A stretch of DNA of 34,458 bases, taken from Candidatus Contendobacter odensis Run_B_J11 (lineage in GTDB: Bacteria > Pseudomonadota > Gammaproteobacteria > Competibacterales > Competibacteraceae). A model generated the notes under the pieces. It was not told the DNA's origin. It saw only the letters and a list, made by a program, of their open reading frames with translations, and did not search any database. Within the stretch, counting starts at the first letter, position 1; each line of letters begins with the position of its first letter. The stretch is taken from contig NZ_CBTK010000281.1 in assembly GCF_000531125.1 (NCBI RefSeq), positions 1 to 34,458 of the forward strand, written 5' to 3'. A program made the translations under genes and the position numbers. Shown here piece after piece: positions 23,233-32,230 of the stretch.

Positions 23233-23692
23233 TGTTGTTACCCTCCACAGTGTTTCGCAAAATTTTTGTTCATGATTTTTTAGTGTCACCTTTCGTATCG
23301 CGCATGACAAGAGTTGGAATTCGCCTCCTCATGCCGCCAGCCATGTCCAACAGTGGCAGCTTGAAATTTCCTCAGTTCGCGTTTTACGGTGAGTAAGAAG
23401 AGACGCACACGGAACGCAGTCTTGAACGCGCATTAGGTTTTGCGTAGAAACGATCTGACCGTTCTCAATCCCGCCAACGGGTGACAAGGACTATCGGCCA
23501 TGTCACTGCCATCAACGTGACCTACGTCTGGGAGGAATACAGCAATCCCTAAACTGGTTGTGGAGGTAGCACGGGCCTCTTGCCCGTGATGAGTCGAAGG
23601 GCTGGAAGCCGGTGCTACATTGAGTTCCATTCATCTAGCTGACGGAAACAAGTCCACCCAAGAGAGGTAGGCGAAAAATGGGTTCACACCGG
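23233..23692. other. Intergenic region with palindromic repeat
   Basis: No gene is visible between the phasin-like gene and the lipoprotein gene. The part near 23233-23300 should hold the phasin-like gene's promoter. The only clear structure is the palindromic repeat at 23566-23618. Confidence 0.5.
23566..23618. repeat. Palindromic repeat, intergenic copy
   Basis: The ends GTAGCAC and GTGCTAC pair, and ACGGGC/GCCCGT and GGCTGGAAGCC make inner stems. On the minus strand it aligns over its whole length with the copy inside the DUF5682 gene at 30739-30788 (shared blocks GGCTTCCAGCCC and ACGGGCA). Confidence 0.75.
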
Positions 23693-27651: not shown

Positions 27652-28842
27652 CTAACTCCCTGCCATCGCCATGCCCCGCGCCGTCACAATCCCCTGCCGC
27701 GCCGCCCACAAATTCACGTCTTCGCGGCGAATGGCGGCGGCCATCATGCCGGGGAACTGATCGGGGGTGCAGGCGAAGGACGGCACGCCCAATACCGCCA
27801 GTTTGGCCGCCAGTTGATGATCATAAGACGGTGCGCCTTCATCGCTGAGCGCCAGCAGGGTGATGAACTGCACCCCGGATTGCACCAGTTCATTAGCGCG
27901 TTGCAACAGGTTTTTCTCCACGCCGCCTTCGTACAGATCGGAAATCAGGATCACAATAGTGTTGCGCGGCGCTCGCACCAACGCCTGGCAATAGCCGGCG
28001 GCGCGGTTAATGTCGGTGCCGCCGCCCAGTTGGACGCCAAACAGCACATCCACCGGATCGCTGAGCTGTTCGGTCAAATCCACCACCGCGGTATCGAACA
28101 CCACCAGATGCGTTTTCACCGCCGGCAACGACGCCATCACCGCGCCGAAGATGCTGGAATACACCACTGAAGCCGCCATTGATCCGCTCTGGTCAATGCA
28201 CAGAATCACCTCGCGCTGGGTGCGCCGCGCTTTGCGGCCATAACCGACCAGGCTTTCCGGGATGATGCTTTGGTAGTCCTCCTGCCAGTGGCGCAGATTG
28301 GCGCGGATGGTGCGGTTCCAGTCAATTTCGGCATGACGCGGGCGACGGTTGCGTTCAGCCCGGTTCAATGCGCCAGTGACCGCGCTGCGCATCGGCTCTT
28401 CCAGCTTTTTCATCAGCGCATCAACCACTTTGCGCACCACCAGCCGGGCGGTGTCCTTGGTCTTGGCCGGAATGATCCCGCGCAACGCCATCAGCGTGGC
28501 GACCAGATGCACGTCGGGTTGCACCGCTTCCAGCAGTTCCGGCTGGAACAACATGCTTTTCAAATCGAGCCGTTCCAGGGCGTCCTTCTGCATCACCTGC
28601 ACCACCGAACTGGGGAAATACTGGCGGATGTCGCCCAGCCAGCGCGCCACTCGCGGCGACGAAGAACCGCTGCCGCCGCGCAGGCCATTCGGCCCGTCCG
28701 GCTCGTACAAGGCCGCTAACGCCGCGTCAATTCGCAGATCGCCAGCGCCCAGCCCGCCGCAACCGGCACATGCCTCTTGGGCCGCCTCGCCCAATACCAG
28801 CCGCCAGCGGCGCAAGCGTTCCTGATCAGAAGATGTGGTCAT
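27652..28842 (-). CDS. VWA domain (CoxE-like) protein
   Basis: The 396 residues carry a C-terminal von Willebrand A domain (about 208-380) with a complete metal-ion-dependent adhesion site: DQSGS (Asp217, Ser219, Ser221), Thr276 in GGGTDI and Asp302 in ISDLYEGG. The N-terminal half is helical, with a CAGCGG pair of Cys near residue 25-28. Such VWA proteins act with MoxR-type ATPases as metal-dependent adaptors that mature or remodel partner proteins. The ATG at 28842 overlaps the DUF5682 stop by ATGA. It is the last gene of the three-gene run. Confidence 0.92.
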   Translation of the reverse strand: MTTSSDQERLRRWRLVLGEAAQEACAGCGGLGAGDLRIDAALAALYEPDGPNGLRGGSGSSSPRVARWLGDIRQYFPSSVVQVMQKDALERLDLKSMLFQPELLEAVQPDVHLVATLMALRGIIPAKTKDTARLVVRKVVDALMKKLEEPMRSAVTGALNRAERNRRPRHAEIDWNRTIRANLRHWQEDYQSIIPESLVGYGRKARRTQREVILCIDQSGSMAASVVYSSIFGAVMASLPAVKTHLVVFDTAVVDLTEQLSDPVDVLFGVQLGGGTDINRAAGYCQALVRAPRNTIVILISDLYEGGVEKNLLQRANELVQSGVQFITLLALSDEGAPSYDHQLAAKLAVLGVPSFACTPDQFPGMMAAAIRREDVNLWAARQGIVTARGMAMAGS

Positions 28843-31130
28843 CGGCTGAGTCCCAATAGCAGGCGTAATAACGGAATCGGTTGTTCGGCACGGGCCGCAT
28901 CCCAATCGGCGTCAATCTGACGCGACACGGTTTGCATCGGGCGCTGGGCGCGTTCGCCCATTTGCCGCCGTTCGTGAGCATTGAAAGTGGCGAAAGTGCG
29001 GCGCAACAGCGGCACCACCCGCAGGAAATGTTCTTCGACCAGGCCGGCCAGCCACTCATCCACCATCGTCCACAGCGGATCGTCATGCAGCAGCACCATC
29101 CCGCTGCGATTGAGAAAGCCTTCCAGCCACGCTGCCGCCGGGCCGGGATCGTTGCCGACCGATAGCGCCTGACTCATGCGAATTGCAGTCTGATCCGCGT
29201 TCTCGACCTGATCATCAAACAACAGCCGCGCCGCCAGCCCGCAAATCAGGCCGTGACTGCTGCCCAGATGCGCCACCCGTTGCAGCGCCTCATGCCACTC
29301 GCCGCTCAATTCCTCGTGAGCCAGCAGCCGCACTGCTTTATGGGTCGCGGCGATGTGTTCACGCATGGCTTGCGCGGCGTCATCGTCGAGCGAACTGCAC
29401 GCGCCGGACAAGCCAATCGCCGCCCGTGGAATCAGCCCTTCCAGCACCGCGTTGACCATCGCCACATCGGTATTGCGCACGTTGCCGTAGCGGACAATGT
29501 GCGTCAGCGGTGGAATCGCCGCCAGCAGTTGCGCCACGTCGCTGGCGACTGCCGCCAGATTTTCCAGCGCCTGAGTTACTGGGCCAATCGCGGCTTGCAA
29601 ATCCGCCAGCAAGGTCTGATTGACCAGTTCCGACAGTTCGGGCAGGGATTGCGCGGCTTGCGCCCGATCCACCGCCTTGGCGGTCGCCGCCCCCTCCACC
29701 GTGTTGCCCCAGCGGCTGGCGGTGATGACGGCGAGGACCAGTTCCGGCTGCCATTGCAAAGTCCACAGCTCGTGAAACGTGCCTTTGGCGCTCTTGCCGG
29801 TTTTGTTCAGATCGCCCCAACCGATGTCCAGCAGGCTCAGACGATGCAGCAAATGGCTACGCGCCAAGTCGTTGGCCTGGCGCAGATCAAGATCGAGGGC
29901 TTTCCGGGTCGCTTCGGGTTTCAACTTGAGCGATTTCTGCTGTTGCTCAAGGTCGCGTTGCAACGGCACGGCGGGCGCTTGTTCGGGAATGCCGCCCAGC
30001 CGGTCGCCGACGACCAATTGCCGATGAATCAACTGCATCGGCGCGTCATCGCCCATGCATACCACGGTGCGCAACGCTTCGCACAATTCATCCAGCCCCG
30101 GTTGATGATGACCGCGCAACGCCGCTAGGGCATCGGCCAGCCGCACCGCTTCAATGATGTGCGCTGAGGAGCAATCCAAATCTTCAGCGCGGAACAGTCG
30201 CGCCGCCCGCGCCAGCCAGCCTACCGCTCGTTGTCGCGTTCCGCCGCTGCGCCACAGATGTTCGTACCACGCCGGAGCCGCAATACCCGCGCCGTAACCG
30301 CTGGCGTTGCTCAGATTGTGGTACGACCACGGTGCCCAAGTCGCGGCGACTTTGGTTTTGGGCAACGCCTTGAGCAGGTCGTTATCGGCCTTGGCGGACG
30401 GCAGCTTTTCCAGCGCCGGGACATGCCACGCACCGCACACCACCGCGATCCGCTCGAAACCGTCTTTCTGCGCCTGCCGCATGGTTTTACGCATGTGCGC
30501 TTCGCGCAAAATTTCGCGCTGCTGTTCGTAGTCGCTGCGGCGGCGGGCGGGAGCTTCGCTGCGAACGGTGGTCATCGCTTCGGCAATCGCCGCAAACAGT
30601 TCCAGACTGTCGTTGCGCTCTTCCACCAGATGATTCCACCACGATTCGCCGTCATCGTAGCCTGCCGCCTGTCCCAGCCAGTGCAGCGGATCGGCATAAA
30701 GATCAGCCCCCTCAGTGCAGACATTGGCATCGGCGGATGTAGAACGGGCTTCCAGCCCGTTAGGAAACGGGCAGGATGCCCGTTCTACGTCGTGCGCCTT
30801 GTCCAGCGCGAACTGGCAGCTCATCGGCAAATCCATGAACCGGGTCGGCGTATTCCGCGCCAAGGCATAGCCCAACGCCTGCCATTCCGGCGAAAACTCG
30901 GCAAAGGGATAAAACGCGGCTTGTTGCGAATCGTCCGGGTTGTAGATCAGCAGCGCGACCGGCAGCGTCAGCCCGGCGTCAAGAACGAAGGGCAACATCA
31001 CCTCGCCCTCCGGCGGCCCCTCAACCAGCAGACAATCCGGCTGGAGCGCATCAAGCGCCTGCACCAGACTCCGGGCGCAACCCGGCCCGTGGTGGCGGAT
31101 GCCAAACAGATGGAAACAGGAATCAGCCAT
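28839..31130 (-). CDS. DUF5682 family protein, with in-frame repeat insertion
   Basis: This 763-residue protein belongs to the DUF5682 family found beside MoxR ATPases and VWA proteins. The N-terminal part (about 1-250) has HLFGIRHHGPG (His13, His14), PDCLLVEGPPEG (Glu37) and ERIAVVCGAWHVPAL (His236). These three sites match the layout of the TraB/TIKI/ChaN superfamily, so a metal-dependent hydrolase or haem/metal-binding role is possible but unproven. The rest is helical with repeat-like character. Residues about 115-131 come from a palindromic repeat (30739-30788) that keeps the frame open; they fall in a loop before ADPLHWLGQAAGYDD. ATG 31130 is chosen to match the family start and lies 17 bases after the ATPase stop. 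Confidence 0.85.
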   Translation of the reverse strand: MADSCFHLFGIRHHGPGCARSLVQALDALQPDCLLVEGPPEGEVMLPFVLDAGLTLPVALLIYNPDDSQQAAFYPFAEFSPEWQALGYALARNTPTRFMDLPMSCQFALDKAHDVERASCPFPNGLEARSTSADANVCTEGADLYADPLHWLGQAAGYDDGESWWNHLVEERNDSLELFAAIAEAMTTVRSEAPARRRSDYEQQREILREAHMRKTMRQAQKDGFERIAVVCGAWHVPALEKLPSAKADNDLLKALPKTKVAATWAPWSYHNLSNASGYGAGIAAPAWYEHLWRSGGTRQRAVGWLARAARLFRAEDLDCSSAHIIEAVRLADALAALRGHHQPGLDELCEALRTVVCMGDDAPMQLIHRQLVVGDRLGGIPEQAPAVPLQRDLEQQQKSLKLKPEATRKALDLDLRQANDLARSHLLHRLSLLDIGWGDLNKTGKSAKGTFHELWTLQWQPELVLAVITASRWGNTVEGAATAKAVDRAQAAQSLPELSELVNQTLLADLQAAIGPVTQALENLAAVASDVAQLLAAIPPLTHIVRYGNVRNTDVAMVNAVLEGLIPRAAIGLSGACSSLDDDAAQAMREHIAATHKAVRLLAHEELSGEWHEALQRVAHLGSSHGLICGLAARLLFDDQVENADQTAIRMSQALSVGNDPGPAAAWLEGFLNRSGMVLLHDDPLWTMVDEWLAGLVEEHFLRVVPLLRRTFATFNAHERRQMGERAQRPMQTVSRQIDADWDAARAEQPIPLLRLLLGLSR
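30739..30788. repeat. Palindromic repeat inside the DUF5682 gene
   Basis: GTAGAACGGGC (30739-30749) and GCCCGTTCTAC (30778-30788) are perfect inverted ends, with an inner CGGGCTTCCAGCCCG palindrome. It is homologous to the intergenic copy at 23566-23618. It lies inside a coding region and adds about 17 codons without a stop. Confidence 0.85.
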
Positions 31131-31147
31131 GAATGCGGCGACCCGGC

Positions 31148-32230
31148 TTACTCGTCCAGCTCGCGGCAGGCGCGGTACAAATCCTTCCACTCGCTGCGCT
31201 CTTTCATCACCGTTTCCTGATATTCGCGCCAGATCACTTCGTCCTGCACCGGGTCTTTGACAATCGCGCCGACCAGACTGGAAGCGATGTCGCCCGCCCG
31301 CAGCACCCCATCGCCAAAGTGCGCGGCCAGCGCCACGCCACTGTTGATCACCGAGATCGCTTCGGCGGTGGACAGGGTGCCGCTGGACGGCTTGAGCTTG
31401 GTTTTACCGTCCTCGGTCTGACCGTTGCGCAACTCGCGGAAAATCTGCACCACCCGCCGCACTTCCTTCAATGCCGGCGGCTCGGACGGCAATTCCAGCG
31501 CACGGCCCATTTCAGCAACGCGCTTGGAAACAATGGAGACTTCCTCGGCCTCGCTCGACGGCACCGGCAGAATCACCGTGTTAAAGCGGCGTTTCAGGGC
31601 GCTGGACAGTTCGTTAATGCCCTTGTCGCGGTTGTTAGCGGTGGCGATCACGTTGAAGCCGCGCACTGCCTGCGCTTCCAAACCCAACTCCGGGATCGGC
31701 AGCGATTTTTCGGACAGAATAGTGATCAGCGTGTCCTGCACATCGGCGGGAATCCGGGTCAGTTCCTCAACCCGCGCCGTCTTGCCCTGCTCCATCGCCC
31801 GCATCAGCGGACTGGACACCAGCGCATTGCGCGACGGCCCTTTGGACAGTAATTCGGCGTAATTCCAGCCATAGCGCAACTGCTCTTCGCTGGTGCCCGC
31901 CGTACCCTGAATCAGCATGGTGGAATCACCGCTGATCGCCGCTGCCAGATGCTCGGACACCCACGATTTGGCGGTGCCGGGCACGCCGAACAGCAGCAAG
32001 GCACGGTCAGTGGTCAGCGTTGCAATCGCGATTTCAATAATCCGCCGGCTGCCGATGTATTTGGGACTGACCTCGAAGCCGTTCTCCAGCTTGCCGCCCA
32101 GCAAATAGGTCGCGACCGCCCACGGCGACATCGCCCAATTGGTGGGCCGCTGGCGGGTATCGGTTTTCTGGAGCGCATCCAGTTCTTCGGTGAATTGCTG
32201 CTCGGCGTGTTGGCGCAGAATAGGGATCAT
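31148..32230 (-). CDS. MoxR-type AAA+ ATPase
   Basis: The 360 residues hold an AAA+ module of the MoxR group. Walker A is GVPGTAKSW (about 82-90), Walker B/sensor region ARVEELTRIPADVQDTLITILSEK, sensor 1 FNVIATANNRDKG and arginine finger LKRRFNTV. The usual MoxR GxxGxGKT is here GVPGTAKS, a variant found in ATPases next to DUF5682 genes. It is cytoplasmic and probably hexameric. It leads the operon with DUF5682 (17 bases downstream) and VWA, and should supply ATP-driven remodelling to the VWA/DUF5682 pair. Confidence 0.92.
   Translation of the reverse strand: MIPILRQHAEQQFTEELDALQKTDTRQRPTNWAMSPWAVATYLLGGKLENGFEVSPKYIGSRRIIEIAIATLTTDRALLLFGVPGTAKSWVSEHLAAAISGDSTMLIQGTAGTSEEQLRYGWNYAELLSKGPSRNALVSSPLMRAMEQGKTARVEELTRIPADVQDTLITILSEKSLPIPELGLEAQAVRGFNVIATANNRDKGINELSSALKRRFNTVILPVPSSEAEEVSIVSKRVAEMGRALELPSEPPALKEVRRVVQIFRELRNGQTEDGKTKLKPSSGTLSTAEAISVINSGVALAAHFGDGVLRAGDIASSLVGAIVKDPVQDEVIWREYQETVMKERSEWKDLYRACRELDE

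Follow-up and report, generated by a model that had tools for sequence, protein, structure and literature searches.

How does a mobile palindromic repeat enter the coding sequence of a conserved protein without closing its frame, and why does it stay there? The question is raised by a hairpin at positions 30739-30788 of a contig of 34,458 nucleotides from Candidatus Contendobacter odensis Run_B_J11 (the whole of this stretch is called the window below). A first-pass annotation, made from the sequence alone, had described the hairpin as an inverted repeat that leaves the frame of a DUF5682 gene open and adds about 17 residues to its product. The reading we favour, with a probability of roughly four in five, is that a GTAG REPIN, belonging to a family with at least 54 places in the genome, took over part of an unstructured linker of the DUF5682 protein, and that it was kept by the tolerance of the linker together with a stop-free frame in the repeat. 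The case is built by sequence comparison, among genomes that include no same-species empty site, and with a family model, R1, to which the window copies themselves contributed.

A hairpin in the frame of a conserved gene

The features of the locus are the following.

27652-28905, minus strand: VWA_CoxE gene, adjoining the DUF5682 gene (PF05762, 8.9e-53)
28839-31190, minus strand: DUF5682 protein gene, longest frame 783 codons
30739-30788, no strand assigned: REPIN (GTAG REP doublet) in the DUF5682 frame, minus-strand codons 135-151, VERASCPFPNGLEARST
31148-32230, minus strand: MoxR-type AAA_5 ATPase gene, adjoining the DUF5682 gene (PF07728, 2.2e-35)

The inverted repeat lies where the first-pass annotation had placed it, with arms of 26 nt (30736-30761 and 30766-30791) that are 88% complementary, and it is the longest among the ten close inverted repeats listed in the window. 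The plus strand of 30739-30788 reads GTAGAACGGGCTTCCAGCCCGTTAGGAAACGGGCAGGATGCCCGTTCTAC, so that GTAG...CTAC forms the two ends of the element. Folded as single-stranded DNA it reaches -26.8 kcal/mol, against a mean of -7.5 for shuffled sequences; a single hairpin forms on both strands (z -9.4 for plus, -10.3 for minus), and none of 200 shuffles equals either.

The DUF5682 frame is open through the element, as had been claimed, and the product matches PF18934 (DUF5682) over profile positions 2-727 of 727 with 898.7 bits (cut-off 26). The ATG at 31130 (residue 21) is a likelier start than the GTG at 31190 that opens the longest frame; the element is read as residues 135-151 from the GTG and as residues 115-131 from the ATG. 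The repeat contains a stop-free reading frame (GTA-GAA-CGG...), and if the DUF5682 gene is expressed, the element would appear in the protein as the peptide given above. The MoxR-type AAA_5, DUF5682 and VWA_CoxE genes lie on one strand between 27652 and 32230. PADLOC gave no match for any of the three products and NCBIfam none for the DUF5682 protein, and since nothing in the PDB matched the DUF5682 model in a Foldseek search (E up to 0.001), we assign no fold to it. No paper on DUF5682 was found in the literature searched, from which its absence from print does not follow.

The element belongs to a REPIN family

23566-23618, no strand assigned: second, degenerate copy of the repeat family, between genes

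The intergenic copy had been proposed as a relative of the hairpin, and the relationship is borne out: the covariance model R1, built from 11 copies with both window copies included, scores 72.5 bits at 30739-30788 and 63.4 bits at 23566-23618. The latter still folds (z -4.4), and no frame of 100 or more codons runs over it. Positions G3, T4, A5 and G6 are invariant across the 11 aligned copies.

In the genome of the window (G000) R1 found at least 100 matches at E up to 1, the two strands of a palindrome being counted separately, which merge into at least 54 places (at least 43 at E up to 0.01). These counts are lower bounds, because only 150 of the 4316 candidates from the first look were scored. 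The exact 21-nt core gave 16 strand-hits in the same genome, with 0 for the control, and the congeners G006 and G003 gave at least 70 and at least 98 R1 matches, respectively, at E up to 0.01 (150 candidates scored). Two subtypes, CTTCCAGCCC (23 of 54 places) and CATCCTGCCC (5 of 54), meet in the window copy, which is the sole place among the 54 to hold both exact subtype strings.

From the GTAG head and the inverted doublet we conclude that the family is one of REPINs, or GTAG REP dimers. It has terminal GTAG, two inverted REPs in one hairpin, many dispersed copies and a RAYT flanked by the same repeats. The extragenic position that the main text of PMC3733652 gives as typical of GTAG REPs, though not as a requirement, is not seen here, the element being in frame in DUF5682.

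A RAYT (a Y1 HUH transposase) would move such a hairpin in trans through single-stranded DNA. That one bracketed by elements of the window's family is present in G000 supports a RAYT as the source: among the eight Y1_Tnp matches in this genome, the one on contig C68 alone has an R1 element within 10 kb among the R1 elements listed. For the other seven, some of which are at contig ends, the listing shows no R1 element as close as this on the contig.

A variable linker that holds different repeats

30711-30812, minus strand: variable DUF5682 linker holding the REPIN (residues 127-160), from homologue comparison

The linker of the window protein has 34 residues (102 nt) and is flanked by two conserved anchors. 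For the comparison 98 homologue loci were given; L113 and L114 gave no anchors, the fragments L112, L115 and L116 were left out, and 96 rows remained, with 91 non-duplicate contigs, window included. Across these 91 rows the linker ranges from 24 to 198 nt (8-66 residues), with no conserved sequence or length. In an AlphaFold2 model (27 sequences, mean pLDDT 85.3) the element extends from the end of helix 123-139 into residues 143-164, where pLDDT is below 50. The location proposed earlier, a loop between conserved blocks, thus agrees with both the alignment and the model.

A strong palindrome (fold z below -3, with shuffles that preserve single-base composition only) was found in three of the 91 linkers, the next value being -2.5. 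Besides the window these are L068, from Competibacteraceae UBA2788 (same contig in G006), and L023 (same contig in G028). The palindrome of L068 is of another subtype and sits further along the linker; it has NN at its centre, and the frame changes across it as assembled. The assemblies of G006 and G003 have their DUF5682 genes split into several pieces. L023 holds an unrelated repeat, with 13 strand-hits in G028 at up to 3 mismatches and 0 for the control. Each of the three palindromes therefore comes from a different repeat or subtype, and the peptides are unrelated where the repeats differ. When R1 was run on 97 homologue loci, the in-gene elements were those of L068 and its duplicate L110 only, with a weak match in L027 (E 0.53); outside the gene it matched once in L098 and a second time in L068. 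Still other repeat families, or short tandem repeats, seem to have given rise to the linkers of L032, L024 and L025 (SPPLPEGEGWGEG, TDQTDQ, ESVEESVE).

An ancient peptide shared by the homologues would be recognized by the same residues occurring without the palindrome. Among the 91 linkers a similar peptide was found only in L068, which has a palindrome too, and since it is missing from all the others this candidate is ruled out; as far as the homologue sequences tell, the DUF5682 protein did not have the element from early on. The central statement of the first-pass annotation, that a mobile-type repeat has become part of a conserved protein's reading frame, stands: a GTAG REPIN lies in frame in an intact, conserved gene and is absent from the other homologues, L068 carrying its different subtype.

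The same comparison bears on the possibility that the repeat is kept as RNA or DNA, either as an mRNA hairpin tuning translation or decay of the MoxR-DUF5682-VWA transcript or as a protein-binding DNA site, with the residues being incidental. A strong hairpin within a run of same-strand genes would fit such a role, and the main text of PMC3733652 makes the case that REPs in many instances work at the RNA level. Against it, the middle of a gene is an unusual place for such a hairpin, and of the 90 other linkers L068 has one of the same family, L023 an unrelated one, and 88 have no strong hairpin; the hairpin is therefore not a conserved control site, and we consider a role of this kind improbable.

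Replacement or loss of linker sequence rather than clean insertion

L055 (same contig in G003) aligns collinearly to the window with 82-91% identity, and both flanks of the element are 90-91% identical, while the element itself is absent. The L055 linker contains no palindrome, is Ala/Glu-rich and has 48 residues (144 nt vs. 102 nt in the window). The string IEAAKQAAEAAASE is common to the L055 and L068 linkers and missing from the window, hence the element either replaced ancestral linker sequence or arrived with or after its loss. The claim of about 17 added residues was right in that codons 135-151 are encoded by the element, and it failed as a description of the event: an element of 50 nt does not divide into whole codons, and the longer linker of a congener without the element rules out a clean insertion of 17 residues. 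The L055 record, JAAUTD010000032.1, is titled Synechococcaceae cyanobacterium, and its genome is placed in the window's genus; because the contig is collinear with the Competibacteraceae-like window and the genome falls in the same genus, the record is probably a mislabelled bin.

The coding sequence flanking the element is under strong purifying selection. Comparison with the congeners L055 and L068 gives a dN/dS of 0.048-0.096, and comparison with L089 and L017, where dS is saturated, one of 0.13-0.23; these values are averages over whole branches and include the time before the element's arrival. Selection on the host gene could be taken to mean that the inserted peptide was itself selected for a new property of DUF5682, for instance a binding site or a linker of altered length, the more so as the linkers of two other members hold other repeats. 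This is very unlikely in our view: the linker is conserved neither in sequence nor in length, is predicted to be unstructured, and different repeats give unrelated peptides in it. An assembly artefact, i.e. a repeat misjoined into the gene, might be suspected in a genome of 319 contigs, given that repeats are where assemblies fail and that the congener's copy has NN at its centre, but it is hardly credible with flanks collinear with L055, the frame kept across the element, and the same 50 nt at no other of the 54 places.

We therefore return to the REPIN that took over part of a linker. In the lineage of the window species it would have taken the place of part of the DUF5682 linker and persisted there, since nearly any sequence that keeps the frame can be accommodated in this linker and the repeat can be read through without a stop. 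Tolerance accounts for the window case without any benefit, and retention would reflect tolerance rather than benefit. More generally, insertions into structured parts would be lost, and those into open-frame linkers would survive.

Other copies in reading frames

The search for further in-frame copies in the genome, suggested along with the original observation, found Pfam-supported frames at 4 of the 54 places: the window and three on contig C68, at 9856, 10513 and 12411. The last of these (G000:C68:12411-12470) is a third REPIN on that contig, in frame in a neighbouring PLD/SNF2-helicase gene (L178:6352-9837). Pfam gave no match for five further G000 frames of at least 130 codons over REPINs (L121, L124, L153, L154, L163), nor for L190 of G006, an open frame over a REPIN; the Pfam scan did not extend to L156 (G000), to L247, L249 and L252 (G006), or to three frames in G003 that have 130-144 codons.

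Among the places listed for G006, of which 32 of 33 were examined, the in-frame cases are a terminase-like frame of 499 codons and, as a candidate only in view of the frame change at NN, the DUF5682 copy of L068. In the former (G006:C168, L238:1413-2909) two REPINs are in frame, one of them near the N-terminus and the other at residues 285-304, exactly between Terminase_6N (67-277) and Terminase_6C (308-460). The REPINs of L252 and L247 are seemingly upstream of the true start. In G003, where 32 of at least 45 places listed were examined, the frames that run over elements have 144 codons at most. All five other Pfam-supported in-gene copies are read in the same phase; two of them come from a single unit, and phase 1 differs little from phase 2 in openness, so that a reading-phase preference is only a hint.

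RAYT genes in frame in DNA methylases

G000:C68:7862-11884 (L178:2366-6385), minus strand: REP-RAYT-REP unit within the single 1341-codon frame of a type IIG restriction-methylase

The R1 elements at C68 9856 and 10513 bracket a Y1_Tnp domain that contains NHVHVIF, which we take to be the HUH motif. The host frame is a type IIG restriction enzyme-methylase (PADLOC 4.5e-242; Pfam Eco57I and TaqI_C). Orthologues in G021 (two copies) and G024, with frames of 1079-1116 codons and without the RAYT unit, align to C68 residues ~1-440 and 668-1339 with 24-48 nt unaligned between, therefore a REP-RAYT-REP unit of ~227 codons stands in frame where the orthologues have a short linker. The flanks of the C68 methylase have dN/dS of 0.07-0.19, with dS saturated. 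In both G021 copies a different palindrome occupies this site; it too is multi-copy, with 27 strand-hits when up to 2 mismatches are allowed and 0 for the control. Elsewhere in the C68 methylase, the loop with the peptide APSPLVGEGWGGGSEP also looks repeat-derived, from a further family or a short tandem repeat.

Two similar arrangements were found. At least 99 Y1_Tnp matches, many of them partial, were listed in 39 family genomes, and two lie in frames of more than 320 codons: that of C68, and G008:C245 (L203:1-3003), a PglX (PADLOC 2.3e-275) in which a RAYT stands between two REP doublets and all 1001 codons of the locus are open. A search with the PglX RAYT in 398 phylum genomes placed C68 first and G406:C36 (L286:1-3477) second among the matches listed, most RAYTs listed having short frames. 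The latter, an HmaB methylase according to PADLOC (1506.7 bits), contains a RAYT that has palindromic repeats on its flanks, and its frame is open over the 1159 codons of the locus. The comparison with empty orthologues covers the C68 methylase only, and multi-copy status of the flanking repeats is shown for the R1 elements of the C68 unit only. Y1_Tnp exceeds the Pfam cut-off in all three embedded domains; with the RAYT model NF047646 (cut-off 80), C68 reaches 79.5 bits and PglX 74.3. The Pfam matches of the three fused frames, taken at E up to 0.001, included no intein family.

Among the matches listed in 369 class genomes there was no other RAYT in a frame of more than 497 codons, in the class to which G406 belongs it was the sole match among 48 genomes searched at E up to 1e-20, and in the plasmid records with RAYT matches (9 and 8) the annotated features were transposase, hypothetical protein or none, and no methylase. 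A weak RAYT match (29% identity) in a frame of 737 codons, G617:C1:549590-549856, may be another embedded RAYT. The three embedded RAYTs did not come out as a single clade in a tree of RAYT cores with 15 of 20 rows (G114, G527b, G512, G000_C260 and G021_C8, in which the motif found no core, were left out): it has 2 changes, 0% of the bootstrap trees have 1, 63 of 500 shuffles are as low, and 2 of 12 inner branches are starred. The three may have a single origin.

Discussion

The residence of GTAG REPs in reading frames, though uncommon, is already in print. The main text of PMC3733652 (Di Nocera et al. 2013) describes GTAG palindromes and dimers wholly inside reading frames, the dimers adding about 20-30 residues, proposes linkers or loops as tolerated sites, and reports different REPs at about the same site in two Xanthomonas recB genes. 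The window element resembles these as a GTAG-headed palindromic dimer within a reading frame, and taken alone it is a modest addition to the published list. What goes beyond that text is the replacement of linker sequence, the three different palindromes in the linker of one family, and the in-frame transposase unit; the words methyl, restriction and terminase are absent from the main text, the list of intragenic REPs being in the supplement.

It is also useful to compare the element with other known repeats. REPINs as characterized in PMC3116915 are likewise two inverted REPs in one hairpin with many genome copies, but the analysis described there concerns extragenic space, whereas the window copy is inside a gene. 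The Rickettsia palindromic elements (PMC10969869, PMC3733652) share with it the in-frame position in functional genes; going by the description in PMC10969869, they are about 150 bp long and of other families. The C68 RAYT has the Y1_Tnp domain, the HUH motif and the REPs on both sides that mark RAYT/TnpA-REP transposases and REPtrons in the accounts of PMC6006769 and PMC3733652; unlike those, it has no frame of its own and is part of a methylase frame of 1341 codons. The survey in PMC6006769 states that it discarded unexpectedly long proteins of the transposase family as gene fusions or annotation errors. We found no report of embedded RAYTs in the literature listings searched, which does not establish their absence from print. 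RAYT genes in frame inside DNA-modifying defence enzymes look new, and what is new in the wider pattern is one linker holding different repeats together with in-frame REPtrons.

It is possible, although we put the odds somewhat against it, that linkers are a niche for REPs and their transposase alike. The REP-RAYT-REP units in frame in type IIG, PglX and HmaB methylases would then have host ribosomes making the transposase with the enzyme intact, the embedded RAYTs being translated with their hosts, and the C68 RAYT would be the source of the window REPIN. Two points are open in this respect, how REPINs persist and how RAYTs get expressed; for the latter, dependence on upstream readthrough is suggested in the main text of PMC3733652. 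If a RAYT sits in frame in an expressed defence enzyme, the problem of its expression would be solved and the host gene spared. For protein evolution, the DUF5682 linker shows that mobile repeats of different families supplied loop sequence more than once.
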